Assembly (NCBI RefSeq): GCF_002076895.1
Contig: NZ_CP020465.1
Location: 2,046,001 to 2,110,000 of the forward strand
Source of the DNA: Cognaticolwellia beringensis
GTDB lineage: Bacteria > Pseudomonadota > Gammaproteobacteria > Enterobacterales > Alteromonadaceae
Direction of reading: 5' to 3'
Length of the DNA: 64,000 nucleotides
Both the position numbers and the translations under genes were made by a program. The notes beneath the pieces were generated by a model. It was given only the letters and a program-made list of their open reading frames with translations, was not told the origin of the DNA and ran no database searches. This document shows, piece by piece, positions 1 through 5,049 of this stretch; the stretch's first letter is position 1; the number at the start of each line of letters is the position of its first letter.

Positions 1-705
1 CTTGGCAATTTTTGTTAACAATACATCACTGATCATAGGGCCTAAACTTTCATTCATTTGAGAAAATTGATCAATGCTAATAACAATCGCAGCAACATGC
101 TTATTTGGATCAGCAGATAACCAAAGGTCTAAATGTTTTGCCATGGCTTTGCGGTTATAAAGCCCTGTTAAAGCGTCAAAATAAATTTCTTTTTTAACAT
201 CATCCAATTCTGAGCGTAATGCTTGAGTTGATTTTTGTGATACTAGCAGTTGCTCAGCTAGCTTTTCTTGCTGGAGTTTAAATTTCTGAGTCGTTTGTCG
301 TATCTGTTTAATAGCGTTAATTATTTCACGCTTATCAATAGACTTTAAACTGGCAATACTCTCATCTAATTGAGTGACTAAGCGCTTTGTGCATAGCGAA
401 GATTGTTCACTGTTGCTTTGCAGATCGTCCAATACGTCATCGAGATCATCAATTAGCTCACCTCGAAAGGCGCTTTGCCCTAAAACATATTGGCGATATA
501 TTTCTTCTAAAAAAAAGTTATCAAGTTTTTTACCGCTGGCTAACTGTTTTTCAATTGCGGCATTCAGAGTTTTTGTTTGTTGATTGAGATATTCGTAACT
601 TACCGCGTAATTGATTGGCGTCGCGGCTATATGCCATAACTGCAATTGTTTTATGGCGGCATGCATTTTTTGTTCAGCTTGTGCTATGGAATCATGGTAC
701 TTCAA
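1..705 (-). CDS. GGDEF-domain protein (putative diguanylate cyclase), 3' end cut by window edge
   Basis: The reading frame is open on the minus strand from 705 to the left edge (235 codons). About 175 residues of helical, probably coiled-coil sequence come first. A GGDEF domain then opens with DALTGLYNRKAM at about residue 177, and the VISIDQF strand follows. The GG(D/E)EF signature and any inhibitory site lie outside the window, so activity cannot be judged. No membrane segment is visible, so a cytoplasmic protein is likely. I chose the TTG at 705 because an AAAAGG Shine-Dalgarno lies just upstream; the first in-frame ATG is 13 codons further in. GGDEF domains make c-di-GMP from two GTP. Several other GGDEF genes and a c-di-GMP riboswitch lie in the same window. 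Confidence 0.8.
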   Translation of the reverse strand, partial: MKYHDSIAQAEQKMHAAIKQLQLWHIAATPINYAVSYEYLNQQTKTLNAAIEKQLASGKKLDNFFLEEIYRQYVLGQSAFRGELIDDLDDVLDDLQSNSEQSSLCTKRLVTQLDESIASLKSIDKREIINAIKQIRQTTQKFKLQQEKLAEQLLVSQKSTQALRSELDDVKKEIYFDALTGLYNRKAMAKHLDLWLSADPNKHVAAIVISIDQFSQMNESLGPMISDVLLTKIAK

Positions 706-930: not shown

Positions 931-2712
931 ATGAAGGTATTTTCAATCACGGTATTTGTACTATTTTTTGTTATCGCTTGTCAGTCTCCTAAACTTTCTT
1001 CGGTGTTAGTGAACGAGAACCTTGAGCAGGTTATTAAAGATTACCAAGATTATAAAGATCATCAAAGTCCATTTAACCAGGATATTGCAGGTGAAACTAA
1101 CAGCCAATTACCTGATTTATCGCCGGATAAGCTCAAACAACAACATCAAGCTTTACACGCTATATATCAACGTTTAGAACTGATCAACGTCAAAAGTCTT
1201 AATCAAGCAGATGCAATTAATCATGCTGTGTTGTCGTATACGATGAAAAATCAACTTGATAGCTATAGTAACAAAGAGCATTACATGCCACTTACTGCTG
1301 AATCAGGTTTCCATGTTTGGATCAGTCGCATTAAAAGCCAAGTGAGCTTTAAAACTGAACAAGATTATCGCGATTATCTGGCCCGATTAAGCGCTTTACC
1401 TCAATATTTCACTCAACAAATTTACTGGATGGATAAGGGAATTGAAGAAGGCATAACTCAACCGAAAATCGTCCTAAAAGGTTTTGAAGAATCGATTAAA
1501 GCTTTTATAAAAATAGATGCTAGCTCAAGCACTTATTATCAGCCATTTTTAACTATGCCTGAATATTTCAGTCAACAACTTACGTCTACACTTCAGGCAC
1601 AAGCTACTGAAACCATAACCAATGTTGTAATACCAAGCTATCAAAAATACTTTGATTATATGGTGCAGCGTTACCAACCCAACGCGCGAACAAATATTGC
1701 CGCGAGTTCTTTACCTAATGGCCAAGATTATTATGTGAACCGGTTACAGCATTATACGACTTTGCCGATTTCAGTAGAGGAAGTACACAACACGGGTTTA
1801 GCAGAAGTTAAGCGAATAAAGCTCGAGATGGAGGCCATTATTAAGCAATCAGGTTTTACCGGAACTTTTGCTGATTTTGTCCATTTTTTGCGTACCGATA
1901 AACAATTTTATGCAACCAGTCCTGAAGGATTACTAAAAGAAGCCTCATTTATCGCTAAAAAAATGGATGCGCAATTACCTAAGTTATTTAAAACTTTGCC
2001 ACGAACGCCTTATGGTGTGATTGAAGTTCCAGCCAATATCGCCCCTAAATACACCACTGGACGATATTCTGGCCCTTCACGAGACGACCAAGCCGGCAAT
2101 TATTGGGTCAATACCTATCGTTTAGATCGCCGACCCTTATATGTGCTAGAAGCGTTAACTTTGCATGAAGCGGTACCGGGCCATCATCTGCAAAGCTCAA
2201 TTGCACGAGAAATGGAGAACGTTCCTAAGTTTAGAAATAATACTTATATTTCTGCATTTGGCGAAGGCTGGGGACTTTATTCAGAGTATCTAGGCTTAGA
2301 AGCCGGATTTTATCAAAATCCTTATAGCAATTTTGGGCGACTAACTTATGAAATGTGGCGAGCTTGTCGACTTGTGGTTGATACCGGCATGCATGCAAAA
2401 GGCTGGAGTCGCGAGCGAGCCATGAACTATTTAGCTGATAACACAGCACTGTCACTACACAACGTTAAAACCGAAATTGACCGCTATATTTCTTGGCCGG
2501 GTCAAGCTTTGTCATATAAAATGGGTGAATTAACGATTAAAAAGCTCCGTAAAATGGCGGAGCAAACGTTAGGTGAAAGCTTTGATTTGAGAGAGTTTCA
2601 TGACCAAGTGTTGAAAAACGGTTCAATGCCGTTATCAATGCTAGAAAATGTGATTAATACTTATGTTGCAGAACAAAAAGCTAAACAGAAAGTGTTATCA
2701 GAAGTAAATTAA
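931..2712 (+). CDS. DUF885 family lipoprotein, probable zinc metallopeptidase-like protein
   Basis: This 593-residue protein has a lipoprotein signal with the lipobox FVIAC, the cysteine being residue 17, so it should be membrane-anchored outside the cytoplasm. The C-terminal half carries the DUF885 hallmark HEAVPGHH (residues 412-419) and a downstream GEGWGLYSE block with a glutamate at about 445. Together these resemble an HExxH-type zinc site. Length and architecture match full-length DUF885 proteins, many of which are annotated as predicted peptidases; substrate and catalysis are not known to me. The gene appears monocistronic. A minus-strand c-di-GMP riboswitch transcript points into its 3' end, which raises antisense control as a possibility. 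Confidence 0.85.
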   Translation: MKVFSITVFVLFFVIACQSPKLSSVLVNENLEQVIKDYQDYKDHQSPFNQDIAGETNSQLPDLSPDKLKQQHQALHAIYQRLELINVKSLNQADAINHAVLSYTMKNQLDSYSNKEHYMPLTAESGFHVWISRIKSQVSFKTEQDYRDYLARLSALPQYFTQQIYWMDKGIEEGITQPKIVLKGFEESIKAFIKIDASSSTYYQPFLTMPEYFSQQLTSTLQAQATETITNVVIPSYQKYFDYMVQRYQPNARTNIAASSLPNGQDYYVNRLQHYTTLPISVEEVHNTGLAEVKRIKLEMEAIIKQSGFTGTFADFVHFLRTDKQFYATSPEGLLKEASFIAKKMDAQLPKLFKTLPRTPYGVIEVPANIAPKYTTGRYSGPSRDDQAGNYWVNTYRLDRRPLYVLEALTLHEAVPGHHLQSSIAREMENVPKFRNNTYISAFGEGWGLYSEYLGLEAGFYQNPYSNFGRLTYEMWRACRLVVDTGMHAKGWSRERAMNYLADNTALSLHNVKTEIDRYISWPGQALSYKMGELTIKKLRKMAEQTLGESFDLREFHDQVLKNGSMPLSMLENVINTYVAEQKAKQKVLSEVN

Positions 2713-2731
2713 TGCAGAAACAAAGGATGGC

Positions 2732-2847
2732 ACGCAAAGCTACCAGAGATTATGATGACTAACCGATAAATTAAGATAAGCCCCCACTATATCTAAATTT
2801 GGCAGTTCCGCTATCATAGGTTTCCCCTTAGATCGGTAACTTTGCGT
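2732..2847 (-). repeat. Inverted repeat forming the anti-aptamer arm of the riboswitch transcript
   Basis: Arms 2732-2744 and 2835-2847 are complementary over 13 positions. In the minus-strand RNA all 13 pair, one as a G-U wobble. In a plus-strand RNA the same position would be a C-A mismatch. This asymmetry suggests that pairing is maintained in the minus-strand transcript. The upstream arm in that RNA is the aptamer core ACGCAAAGTTACC, so pairing with the downstream arm would destroy the c-di-GMP pocket, as an expression platform should. Confidence 0.65.
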
Positions 2848-2880
2848 CTCCAATTTTCATTGGATTTGCCCTTGTCGAGC
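2798..2880 (-). ncRNA. c-di-GMP-I (GEMM-I) riboswitch aptamer
   Basis: Read on the minus strand, the conserved GEMM-I blocks occur in order. GGGCAAA is at 2871-2865. A stem CCAAT/ATTGG closed by a GAAA tetraloop spans 2863-2850. GACGCAAAG is followed by TTACCGATCTAAGG, and GATAGCGGAACTGCC ends at 2801. Spacing and order match the GEMM-I class that binds c-di-GMP; I did not separate this from the cGAMP-binding variant. A near-consensus promoter precedes it, and a complementary anti-aptamer segment follows. No convincing coding sequence starts downstream before the transcript would run antisense into the DUF885 gene, so the regulated target is unknown. Confidence 0.9.
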
Positions 2881-2898
2881 TTTAGCAGCTCAAGTCCG

Positions 2899-2926
2899 AT
2901 TATAGGCAAAGTATTCTATTTGTAAA
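2899..2926 (-). promoter_or_regulatory. Sigma-70 promoter of the GEMM-I riboswitch RNA
   Basis: On the minus strand, TTTACA (2926-2921) and TATAAT (2904-2899) are separated by 16 bases. The -10 is a perfect match and the -35 matches 5 of 6. Transcription would start near 2892, a dozen bases upstream of the aptamer. This supports the riboswitch being independently transcribed rather than a fossil. Confidence 0.75.
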
Positions 2927-3204: not shown

Positions 3205-5049
3205 ATGAAGCGCATGCTGCTAGGTATTTTAATAAGTTTTTGCATAATTCTGAACGGACAAGCGGAATCCGTCAATAGCGATAAAAACTATCGCCAATTA
3301 ATTAATGCTTATTACATCCAAGATAAAGAGTTATTGATTTCTCAAGATGTTGTTGACGTTGCACAAGCTGTAATCAACAACCGTAACCAGTATGGCCATC
3401 ATATTGTGGCGAGAGCCTTTTCTATATTGTCGGATGTTGCATTTAATCGCGGTAACTTATTAATGGCATTTCAATTTGCACAATATGGCAGCGAAATCGA
3501 TAATATTGATGTGGATGTAGCACTAGATTTGATGTTGAAAATTGCTCGTGGTTATTATGCTCAAGGTCATTATATTCAGTTAAAAGAGACCTCTCAAAAA
3601 GCAGCTCGATTAGCTCAGCAAGCGAATAATATGAATTATCATTTGCAGGCTCTCGCTTATTCGGTAGTAGCTTATGCCCTAAGTGCTGATTATGCCTTGG
3701 CGGTAAAAGAGTTGAGTAAGGTTGAAAACTTACTTAGTCAAAACAAGCAAAATGTAGATCAGATCACCTTATTAGAAATTATTGCCGAAGCGCACTTTTA
3801 TTTATCTGAATATGACAATGTTGTAGAACTACTGGACCGCGTACTAAAATTGCGTACAGATATGTCGAGAACAGAAGGTATTGCCCAAAGCTACCATTTA
3901 GTGGCAAAGGCCTATTATCAGTTACAACAATATGATGACGCTTATAATGCTTTTTGGCAGTCATTACAATTTGCTCAACAACATAAATTAAATATTCGAG
4001 TAGCCTATGCAGAGCTTGGGTTAGGGCAAGTGCTATTTCAACAACAGCAGTTTACGCTGGCAAAAGAGCGCTTACTTAAAGCCCAAGTAGTTTTTACTCA
4101 ATATAATTTAGTGCGAGTTAAGTTATCAACACAAATTAGTTTAGTAAAAGTTTTGTATGCCTTGGATCAACCTGAAGAAGCTGATGAAATGCTGCTTTTA
4201 GCTCAGTCTTTAGCTAAAAATTTAGTGCTTTCGCCACAACAAATAGAACTGTATTTATTGCTCACAGATTACTATAGTGGGCAGAAAAATTTTGAGCAAG
4301 CAATCGAAGCACAACGACATTATTTAACCTTATATCAAACGCTGTATCCGAACGTGAGTGATAATAACTCATTTGCAAGTGTAGCTAAATCAGCCAGTAA
4401 TAAAGCAAAAATACTAGCCTTAAATGTAGCTGAACAAAGCGAGTTGAGTTTAAAGTTTAGTGAAAAGTATGATCAACAAAACCTGTTGATTATTTTACTC
4501 GCTTCATTACTAAGTTTTAGTGTTATTTTTATAGTTTTCTGCCGTTTTCAAGTGCGCCGCCAGAAACTTAATCGTAGCTATGATGAAATAGAATTACCTC
4601 AAAATCATTTAGCGCAACCGGTTCAAACGAAGCGCTGGTATCAACAGCAATATAAAATGGCAAGAAAATATCAATATAATATTTCTGTCGCCTATTTGAA
4701 GGTTGAAAACTGGCAGGAGCTCAGCTTTCACTTTAACCGTAAAATTTTAACGGATGTCAGTCAAGTGCTCGCCGTTATTATCAATGAGAATATTGATGAG
4801 GAAGATTATGCAGGAGTTATCATTGAAGGTGAGTACCTATTTCTGTGCCCACATCAAACTCCTGAGCAAATTCGAGTTAAATTTACAAGAATACAGCAGG
4901 CAATTAAAACACGTGTTTTTGCAAACTTAGGGGATTATTCAGTTAAAGTTATTTTTTCGATTGATTCGCCTAATATTCAAGATATCGATCCCTATGTTTT
5001 TCTCTCTCGATTGAGTCAATGCAATGGTAATAAGGAACAGAAAGCATAA
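3205..5049 (+). CDS. TPR-repeat membrane sensor with degenerate GGDEF domain
   Basis: This 614-residue protein has a cleavable-looking signal peptide (residues 1 to about 20, ending NGQAES). A long all-helical region follows with tetratricopeptide-like repeats (about 40-400), then one transmembrane helix at about 427-447. The cytoplasmic C-terminal region (about 475-605) has GGDEF-like secondary structure. At the signature position it reads EGEYLF (541-546), so the GG(D/E)EF motif is lost, and the DxLTGLxNR opening is also absent. I infer a periplasmic TPR sensor whose cyclase domain is degenerate and probably catalytically dead, perhaps a GTP- or partner-binding module. The gene stands alone. 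Confidence 0.7.
   Translation: MKRMLLGILISFCIILNGQAESVNSDKNYRQLINAYYIQDKELLISQDVVDVAQAVINNRNQYGHHIVARAFSILSDVAFNRGNLLMAFQFAQYGSEIDNIDVDVALDLMLKIARGYYAQGHYIQLKETSQKAARLAQQANNMNYHLQALAYSVVAYALSADYALAVKELSKVENLLSQNKQNVDQITLLEIIAEAHFYLSEYDNVVELLDRVLKLRTDMSRTEGIAQSYHLVAKAYYQLQQYDDAYNAFWQSLQFAQQHKLNIRVAYAELGLGQVLFQQQQFTLAKERLLKAQVVFTQYNLVRVKLSTQISLVKVLYALDQPEEADEMLLLAQSLAKNLVLSPQQIELYLLLTDYYSGQKNFEQAIEAQRHYLTLYQTLYPNVSDNNSFASVAKSASNKAKILALNVAEQSELSLKFSEKYDQQNLLIILLASLLSFSVIFIVFCRFQVRRQKLNRSYDEIELPQNHLAQPVQTKRWYQQQYKMARKYQYNISVAYLKVENWQELSFHFNRKILTDVSQVLAVIINENIDEEDYAGVIIEGEYLFLCPHQTPEQIRVKFTRIQQAIKTRVFANLGDYSVKVIFSIDSPNIQDIDPYVFLSRLSQCNGNKEQKA

Follow-up and report, generated by a model that had tools for sequence, protein, structure and literature searches.

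A conserved c-di-GMP-I aptamer unit without a constant neighbouring gene, probably a free-standing small RNA of Colwellia-type marine bacteria

In the literature consulted, c-di-GMP riboswitches act on an adjoining gene or have been proposed to be sponges (merRNA; accessible text of PMC3627812). What is the role of a c-di-GMP aptamer that has its own promoter and no gene behind it? Such a locus was predicted on the minus strand of the 64,000-nt stretch of DNA analysed here (the window), and was suggested to encode a c-di-GMP-controlled antisense or trans-acting small RNA.

Parts of the RNA unit

The covariance search proposed with the original prediction yielded a match to RF01051 at 2880..2798 of the minus strand (81.6 bits against a gathering score of 35, E 1.6e-14, model positions 1-87 of 87), and the GEMM-I blocks and coordinates that had been read from the letters were right. 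This aptamer (2798..2880) was the sole Rfam match reaching its gathering score across the 64-kb window. It is preceded on the same strand by the predicted promoter TTTACA-16-TATAAT (2899..2926; TTTACA 2926-2921, TATAAT 2904-2899), which scores 11/12. Taken alone, the promoter scan was weak, with 6 sites in 1 kb and 3.0 expected. However, a promoter scoring at least 10/12 was found in 98 of 100 relatives and in none of 100 control stretches located 200-260 nt upstream. TTTACA was present in 91, TATAAT in 94 and the 16-bp spacer in 95 of the 100 relatives.

The predicted anti-aptamer GGTAGCTTTGCGT (2732..2744, minus strand) is complementary to the aptamer core segment ACGCAAAGTTACC (2835..2847, minus strand). 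Positions 2744-2732 and 2847-2835 can form 13 consecutive pairs, one of them U-G. The 194-nt RNA was predicted to fold through this pairing, at -59.8 kcal/mol, whereas 200 shuffled sequences gave -43.9 +/- 4.16 kcal/mol (z -3.82, none as low). Other parts, all on the minus strand, had been missed in the original prediction. A 5' hairpin, GAGC..GCTC (2877..2891), lies just past the inferred start (~2893). Between the aptamer and the anti-aptamer there is a second hairpin (~2769..2799) with a covarying stem, whose loop contains GGGGG (2785-2781) in an invariant GGGGGCU. The anti-aptamer is followed by a pyrimidine tail, GCCATCCTTTGTTTCT (2716..2731), capable of partial pairing with AAGGGC at the 5' end of the aptamer.

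A pyrimidine tract of ~14 nt was present behind the anti-aptamer in all 43 relatives examined, with A making up 30 of 602 letters, compared with 31% in the flank. Since the composition becomes flank-like again beyond it, the tract was taken as the probable 3' end of the RNA; the terminator scan called no site at the tail. With this end the small RNA gene is probably ~175-180 nt long, and the RNA probably stops ~4 nt before the stop codon of the convergent DUF885 lipoprotein gene (931..2712, plus strand; PF05960, 570 bits).

Conservation and the second fold

The orphan RNA was found in 13 of the 17 genomes of the genus. A covariance model of the whole RNA (~175 nt), built from these 13 members, was run against the 395 genomes of the family; at E<=1e-5 it had a match in 105 of them, in each case a single one of full length. 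Two of the 105 were ordinary c-di-GMP-I aptamers (G020, G158), three were divergent and scored below 50 bits (G037, G388, G259), and 100 scored at least 71 bits. The latter came from 18 of 52 genera. Counts on 100 genomes omit the five matches below 50 bits (G020, G158, G259, G388, G037), the set of 103 loci omits G020 and G158, which lack GGGGG, and collapsing three identical sequences reduced the 100 to 97 distinct ones. A second model used with a laxer limit added a weak match (32-40 bits) in three family genomes.

In all 97 distinct sequences the loop GGGGGCU and the anti-aptamer core UUUGC were invariant, as were GCAAA, ACGCAAAGU (aptamer core) and GCGG. The loop of G259 reads GGGGGCC, and CTTTGC is absent from G259 and G388, so these two are divergent relatives at best. 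A search of 394 genomes of the order gave ten matches of at least 117 bits, which belong to family members, and no other match scored above 58.2 bits; 20 of the loci at or below this score were read, and none had GGGGG within 200 nt. The RNA had no match in the plasmid collection searched.

Folding of the 13 genus members with RNAalifold gave a rod of 53 pairs, of which 7 were changed on both sides; 3 of these 7 join the aptamer to the 3' arm. With 44 distinct sequences aligned to the model, 24 pairs changed on both sides, as compared with 10.5 in shuffles (0 of 500 as high) and at most 9 in slid structures. In the same alignment 93.0% of the cells could pair, against 33-44% for slid structures. 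Both-sided changes were seen in 5 of the 6 pairs of the 5' hairpin, and the stem of the G-loop hairpin, which covaries, and the helix between the tail and the 5' end of the aptamer also appeared in this model-fitted analysis. An alignment fitted to a structure leans towards that structure, in this case the rod, and in an unfitted MAFFT alignment of the 97 sequences RNAalifold reduced the long-range fold to the six core pairs GCAAAG:CUUUGC, besides the aptamer pairs and the G hairpin. For this reason an alignment-free partner-swap test was made, in which the energy gained when an aptamer pairs with its own 3' arm was compared with the energies obtained with the arms of other species, the invariant core being excluded. 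None of 20000 permutations was as good as the true assignment for the 97 sequences, and 145 of 20000 were for the 26 divergent ones. In each of 45 cases the rod was more stable than its two halves folded on their own, with a median difference of -17.9 kcal/mol (from -26.4 to -4.0, in energies that exclude the ligand and tertiary contacts). Judged by these comparisons, the anti-aptamer fold is a real second fold, mutually exclusive with the aptamer.

The strand carrying the function was indicated by the wobble pairs. In a structure-fitted alignment of 45 relatives the long-range pairs contained 108 G-U and 37 A-C cells, and the G-loop hairpin 66 and 5. The excess of G-U favours the minus-strand RNA as the functional one, as did the single wobble pair noted in the original prediction.

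Neighbouring genes and alternative explanations

In the window the RNA is flanked upstream by a divergent gene for a TPR protein (3205..5049, plus strand; PF13424). Beyond DUF885, on the strand of the RNA, there is a GGDEF gene that the window contains only in part (1..705, minus strand; PF00990). No downstream reading frame for the RNA was found in the window. In the set of 103 loci DUF885 was convergent in 75, a codirectional GGDEF gene took its place in 24, and neither was present in 4. DUF885 began ~172-876 nt from the RNA start in the 75 loci, and in the 24 loci without it the GGDEF gene lay 288-519 nt after the RNA start. The next downstream gene in the remaining four, named by eye, was oligoribonuclease-like (G053, G092), helicase-like (G331) or another convergent gene (G243). 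In two Colwellia genomes (L073, L291) the RNA stands opposite a gene that, from its sequence, we take to be of the oligoribonuclease-like family, and DUF885 is absent there.

The 103 loci offered no constant downstream gene of the kind that a cis-regulatory riboswitch precedes, which upholds the description of the RNA as an orphan, here extended over 100 genomes. Two features expected of a trans-acting, ligand-gated small RNA were present: its own promoter, and conservation as a unit irrespective of the neighbours. The unit consists of the promoter, the full aptamer, an aptamer-pairing 3' half, a hairpin with an invariant loop and a pyrimidine tail, and it is kept through Colwellia-type genera without a constant neighbour. 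Since there is no constant neighbouring gene to control, the RNA is probably a free-standing, signal-switched regulator of Colwellia-type marine bacteria. The explanation that we favour, with moderate confidence, is a stand-alone gene for a c-di-GMP-switched small RNA of ~175-180 nt that would act in trans.

Because DUF885 adjoins the RNA in 75 of the 103 loci, a link in cis is possible. The RNA could be a c-di-GMP-controlled terminator, in which the rod terminates transcription and ligand binding allows read-through, which would yield an antisense RNA into DUF885 or a leader for the GGDEF gene. We regard this as unlikely. It is consistent with the convergent DUF885 and codirectional GGDEF arrangements counted above, and a terminator-like site inside DUF885 (2563-2544, minus strand) could end a read-through antisense RNA. 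In the window the RNA probably ends ~4 nt from the DUF885 stop codon, an arrangement that agrees with the definition of antisense-acting riboswitches in the accessible part of PMC9943018, namely a convergent position no more than 500 nt from the 3' end of the gene. According to the same part of this 2023 survey, c-di-GMP riboswitches are the family most often found in antisense orientation (152 antisense, 2554 sense), and the example in its Fig 3C is an uncharacterised Colwellia gene, A3Q33_07785 of Colwellia sp. PAMC 21821, whose locus may be that of the orphan RNA.

The comparison of genomes did not reveal a lasting association of the RNA with an opposed DUF885 gene. The latter is missing from 28 of the 103 loci, its distance from the RNA start is far from constant where it is present, and at four loci a cis terminator would have neither of the two genes to act on. 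On the other hand, in four genomes of the genus a DUF885 orthologue is retained (77-85% identity) and the full RNA is absent. In one of them, G003, a remnant scoring 20.7 bits lies next to DUF885 and has lost the promoter, the aptamer core and the G run; decayed pieces of the RNA were recognized by eye in G011 and G012, less clearly in G010. The decayed remnants adjoin an intact DUF885 gene in the four sister genomes (L317-L320, L332). These two patterns, neighbours that vary around a retained RNA and a DUF885 gene that survives the loss of the RNA, speak for a stand-alone switched small RNA rather than for antisense control of DUF885. Antisense-acting riboswitches, as described in the accessible text of PMC9943018, resemble the orphan RNA in being convergent to the 3' end of a neighbour and in being enriched in c-di-GMP aptamers, but in their case the target is assumed to be the convergent gene, whereas the orphan RNA persists at loci without DUF885, and DUF885 persists in genomes without the RNA. 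For this RNA our sequence data argue against the general antisense reading given in that part of the survey. Of the two roles originally proposed, antisense to DUF885 is disfavoured, also by the probable end of the RNA before the stop codon, and the evidence is stronger for a trans-acting small RNA.

Control of the GGDEF gene by read-through was considered separately. A conserved element, CTAGAGAAT, which differs from the sigma70 consensus, was found within 110 nt before the GGDEF start in 31 of 49 loci (e.g. L061, L062). It was present in 14 of the 25 loci with DUF885 in between, in 17 of the 24 without it and in 0 of 49 control stretches, although the motif was chosen after the sequences had been seen. 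Because the element is there with or without DUF885 in between, the GGDEF gene looks like a neighbour brought nearer by the loss of DUF885 rather than a constant partner. Against this, and in favour of the cis terminator, the sigma70 scan before the GGDEF gene found no promoter better than those in shuffles. A real gene starting downstream in close relatives had been named as an observation that would speak against an orphan RNA. This was observed in part: in 24 loci a GGDEF gene does follow the RNA on the same strand, but that gene is no constant partner, and its upstream element occurs whether or not the RNA adjoins it. The cis terminator also leaves the invariant loop unexplained.

A c-di-GMP sponge or reservoir, in which the abundance of the aptamer counts and there is no target, appears improbable. 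The strong, near-consensus promoter, the intact aptamer and the lack of a gene would fit such a role, for which merRNA of Bdellovibrio bacteriovorus is a direct precedent (accessible text of PMC3627812); a sponge, however, has no need for an invariant GGGGGCU loop or for a covarying arm by which the aptamer is destroyed. In the same portion of that paper merRNA is described as a 445-nt RNA massively expressed in the attack phase, for which the authors found no conservation beyond Bdellovibrio. It is the known RNA nearest in kind to the orphan RNA, as both are non-coding c-di-GMP riboswitches without a conserved downstream frame. They differ in that the orphan RNA is ~175 nt long, is found in 100 genomes of 18 genera and has a conserved anti-aptamer and loop, none being reported for merRNA in the text available.

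The locus could also be the relic of an ordinary cis riboswitch that has lost its gene. Ordinary GEMM-I elements do precede genes in the same genomes, but 100 genomes in 18 genera retain the promoter together with the loop and the anti-aptamer, which a relic would not do, and where the RNA decays all its parts go together; this origin, refuted by the conservation, is very improbable. Strongly disfavoured, too, is a leader encoding a short peptide: the likeliest minus-strand frame in the window has 25 codons and an ATG within the aptamer preceded by AAGGGG, but the ATG occurs in only 56 of 100 relatives, with frames scattered from 7 to 73 codons, in line with the earlier view that the strand has no credible coding sequence.

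Proposed mode of action and related RNAs

For the stand-alone small RNA the following switch can be envisaged. The aptamer is transcribed first, and c-di-GMP bound during transcription would make it resist invasion. The 3' arm and the tail, with its anti-Shine-Dalgarno-like CCUUCCUUU, would then be left free. If c-di-GMP is absent, the 3' arm would invade the aptamer, giving one long rod in which aptamer, arm and tail are hidden. The G-rich loop would sit at the tip of the rod and be exposed in both states. As the freed tail is anti-Shine-Dalgarno-like and the GGGGGCU loop exposed in both states, an action in trans on mRNAs or on a protein would be expected. The open, c-di-GMP-bound form might pair with mRNAs or hold an RNA-binding protein, the choice of this form as the active one being a guess. 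More tentatively, the matches may represent a family of c-di-GMP-gated trans-acting small RNAs of Colwellia-type bacteria, one gene per genome, in which the ligand frees the arm and RNA alone carries the signal to the mRNAs of distant genes, or to a protein bound at the loop. If this is true, a conserved RNA that has no fixed gene and unites an aptamer with an invariant loop and a covarying, aptamer-destroying arm would provide a direct path from c-di-GMP to distant targets. Its hosts include culturable, non-pathogenic species of Colwellia and Cognaticolwellia.

The anti-Shine-Dalgarno core is CCTCCTTT. The tail of the RNA in G016 (L010/L038) reads GCCTCCTTTGTTT and matches this core.

Targets were sought as exact complements of the G loop, GCCCCCACTA, in 17 genomes, with the pattern read backwards as control. 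There were 64 matches, 13 of which were the RNA itself, leaving 51 non-self matches as compared with 27 for the reversed control. Thirty of the 64 loci were inspected: 3 were the RNA itself, 6 shared the conserved stretch GTTGAAA..CCCCACTA, 2 lay in one EAL gene and the others were single, and among these 30 there was no convincing conserved target. With 34 matches outside the inspected set, the excess over the control is only partly explained. The shared stretch (L230, L235, L242, L243, L248 and L253) is located upstream of dnaK at L235 and resembles what we take to be a sigma32 promoter, which accounts for the recurrent match to the loop complement.

A literature search, which most subscription journals lay outside, found no description of this RNA. 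That a riboswitch can determine what becomes of a trans-acting small RNA, as proposed here, is known from EutX and Rli55, which are controlled by a B12 riboswitch and sequester EutV through an ANTAR site (accessible text of PMC7602753). Their ligand and aptamer are different, and the EutV partner is theirs.

Ordinary c-di-GMP-I riboswitches (RF01051) belong to the same aptamer family. For the second aptamer of the genome analysed here (G000:C1:3759156-3759249, minus strand; L002), inspection by eye likewise showed an arm with complementarity to the aptamer core and, after it, a run of T. Such a riboswitch precedes a reading frame (L020), whereas the orphan RNA is without a constant downstream gene and has the GGGGG-loop hairpin. 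In relatives (L020, L024) the second aptamer is followed by a frame starting MKKLLLVTT. In G012 two c-di-GMP-I aptamers, C35:414126-414201 on the minus strand and 414816-414891 on the plus strand, lie ~600 nt apart and face away from each other.
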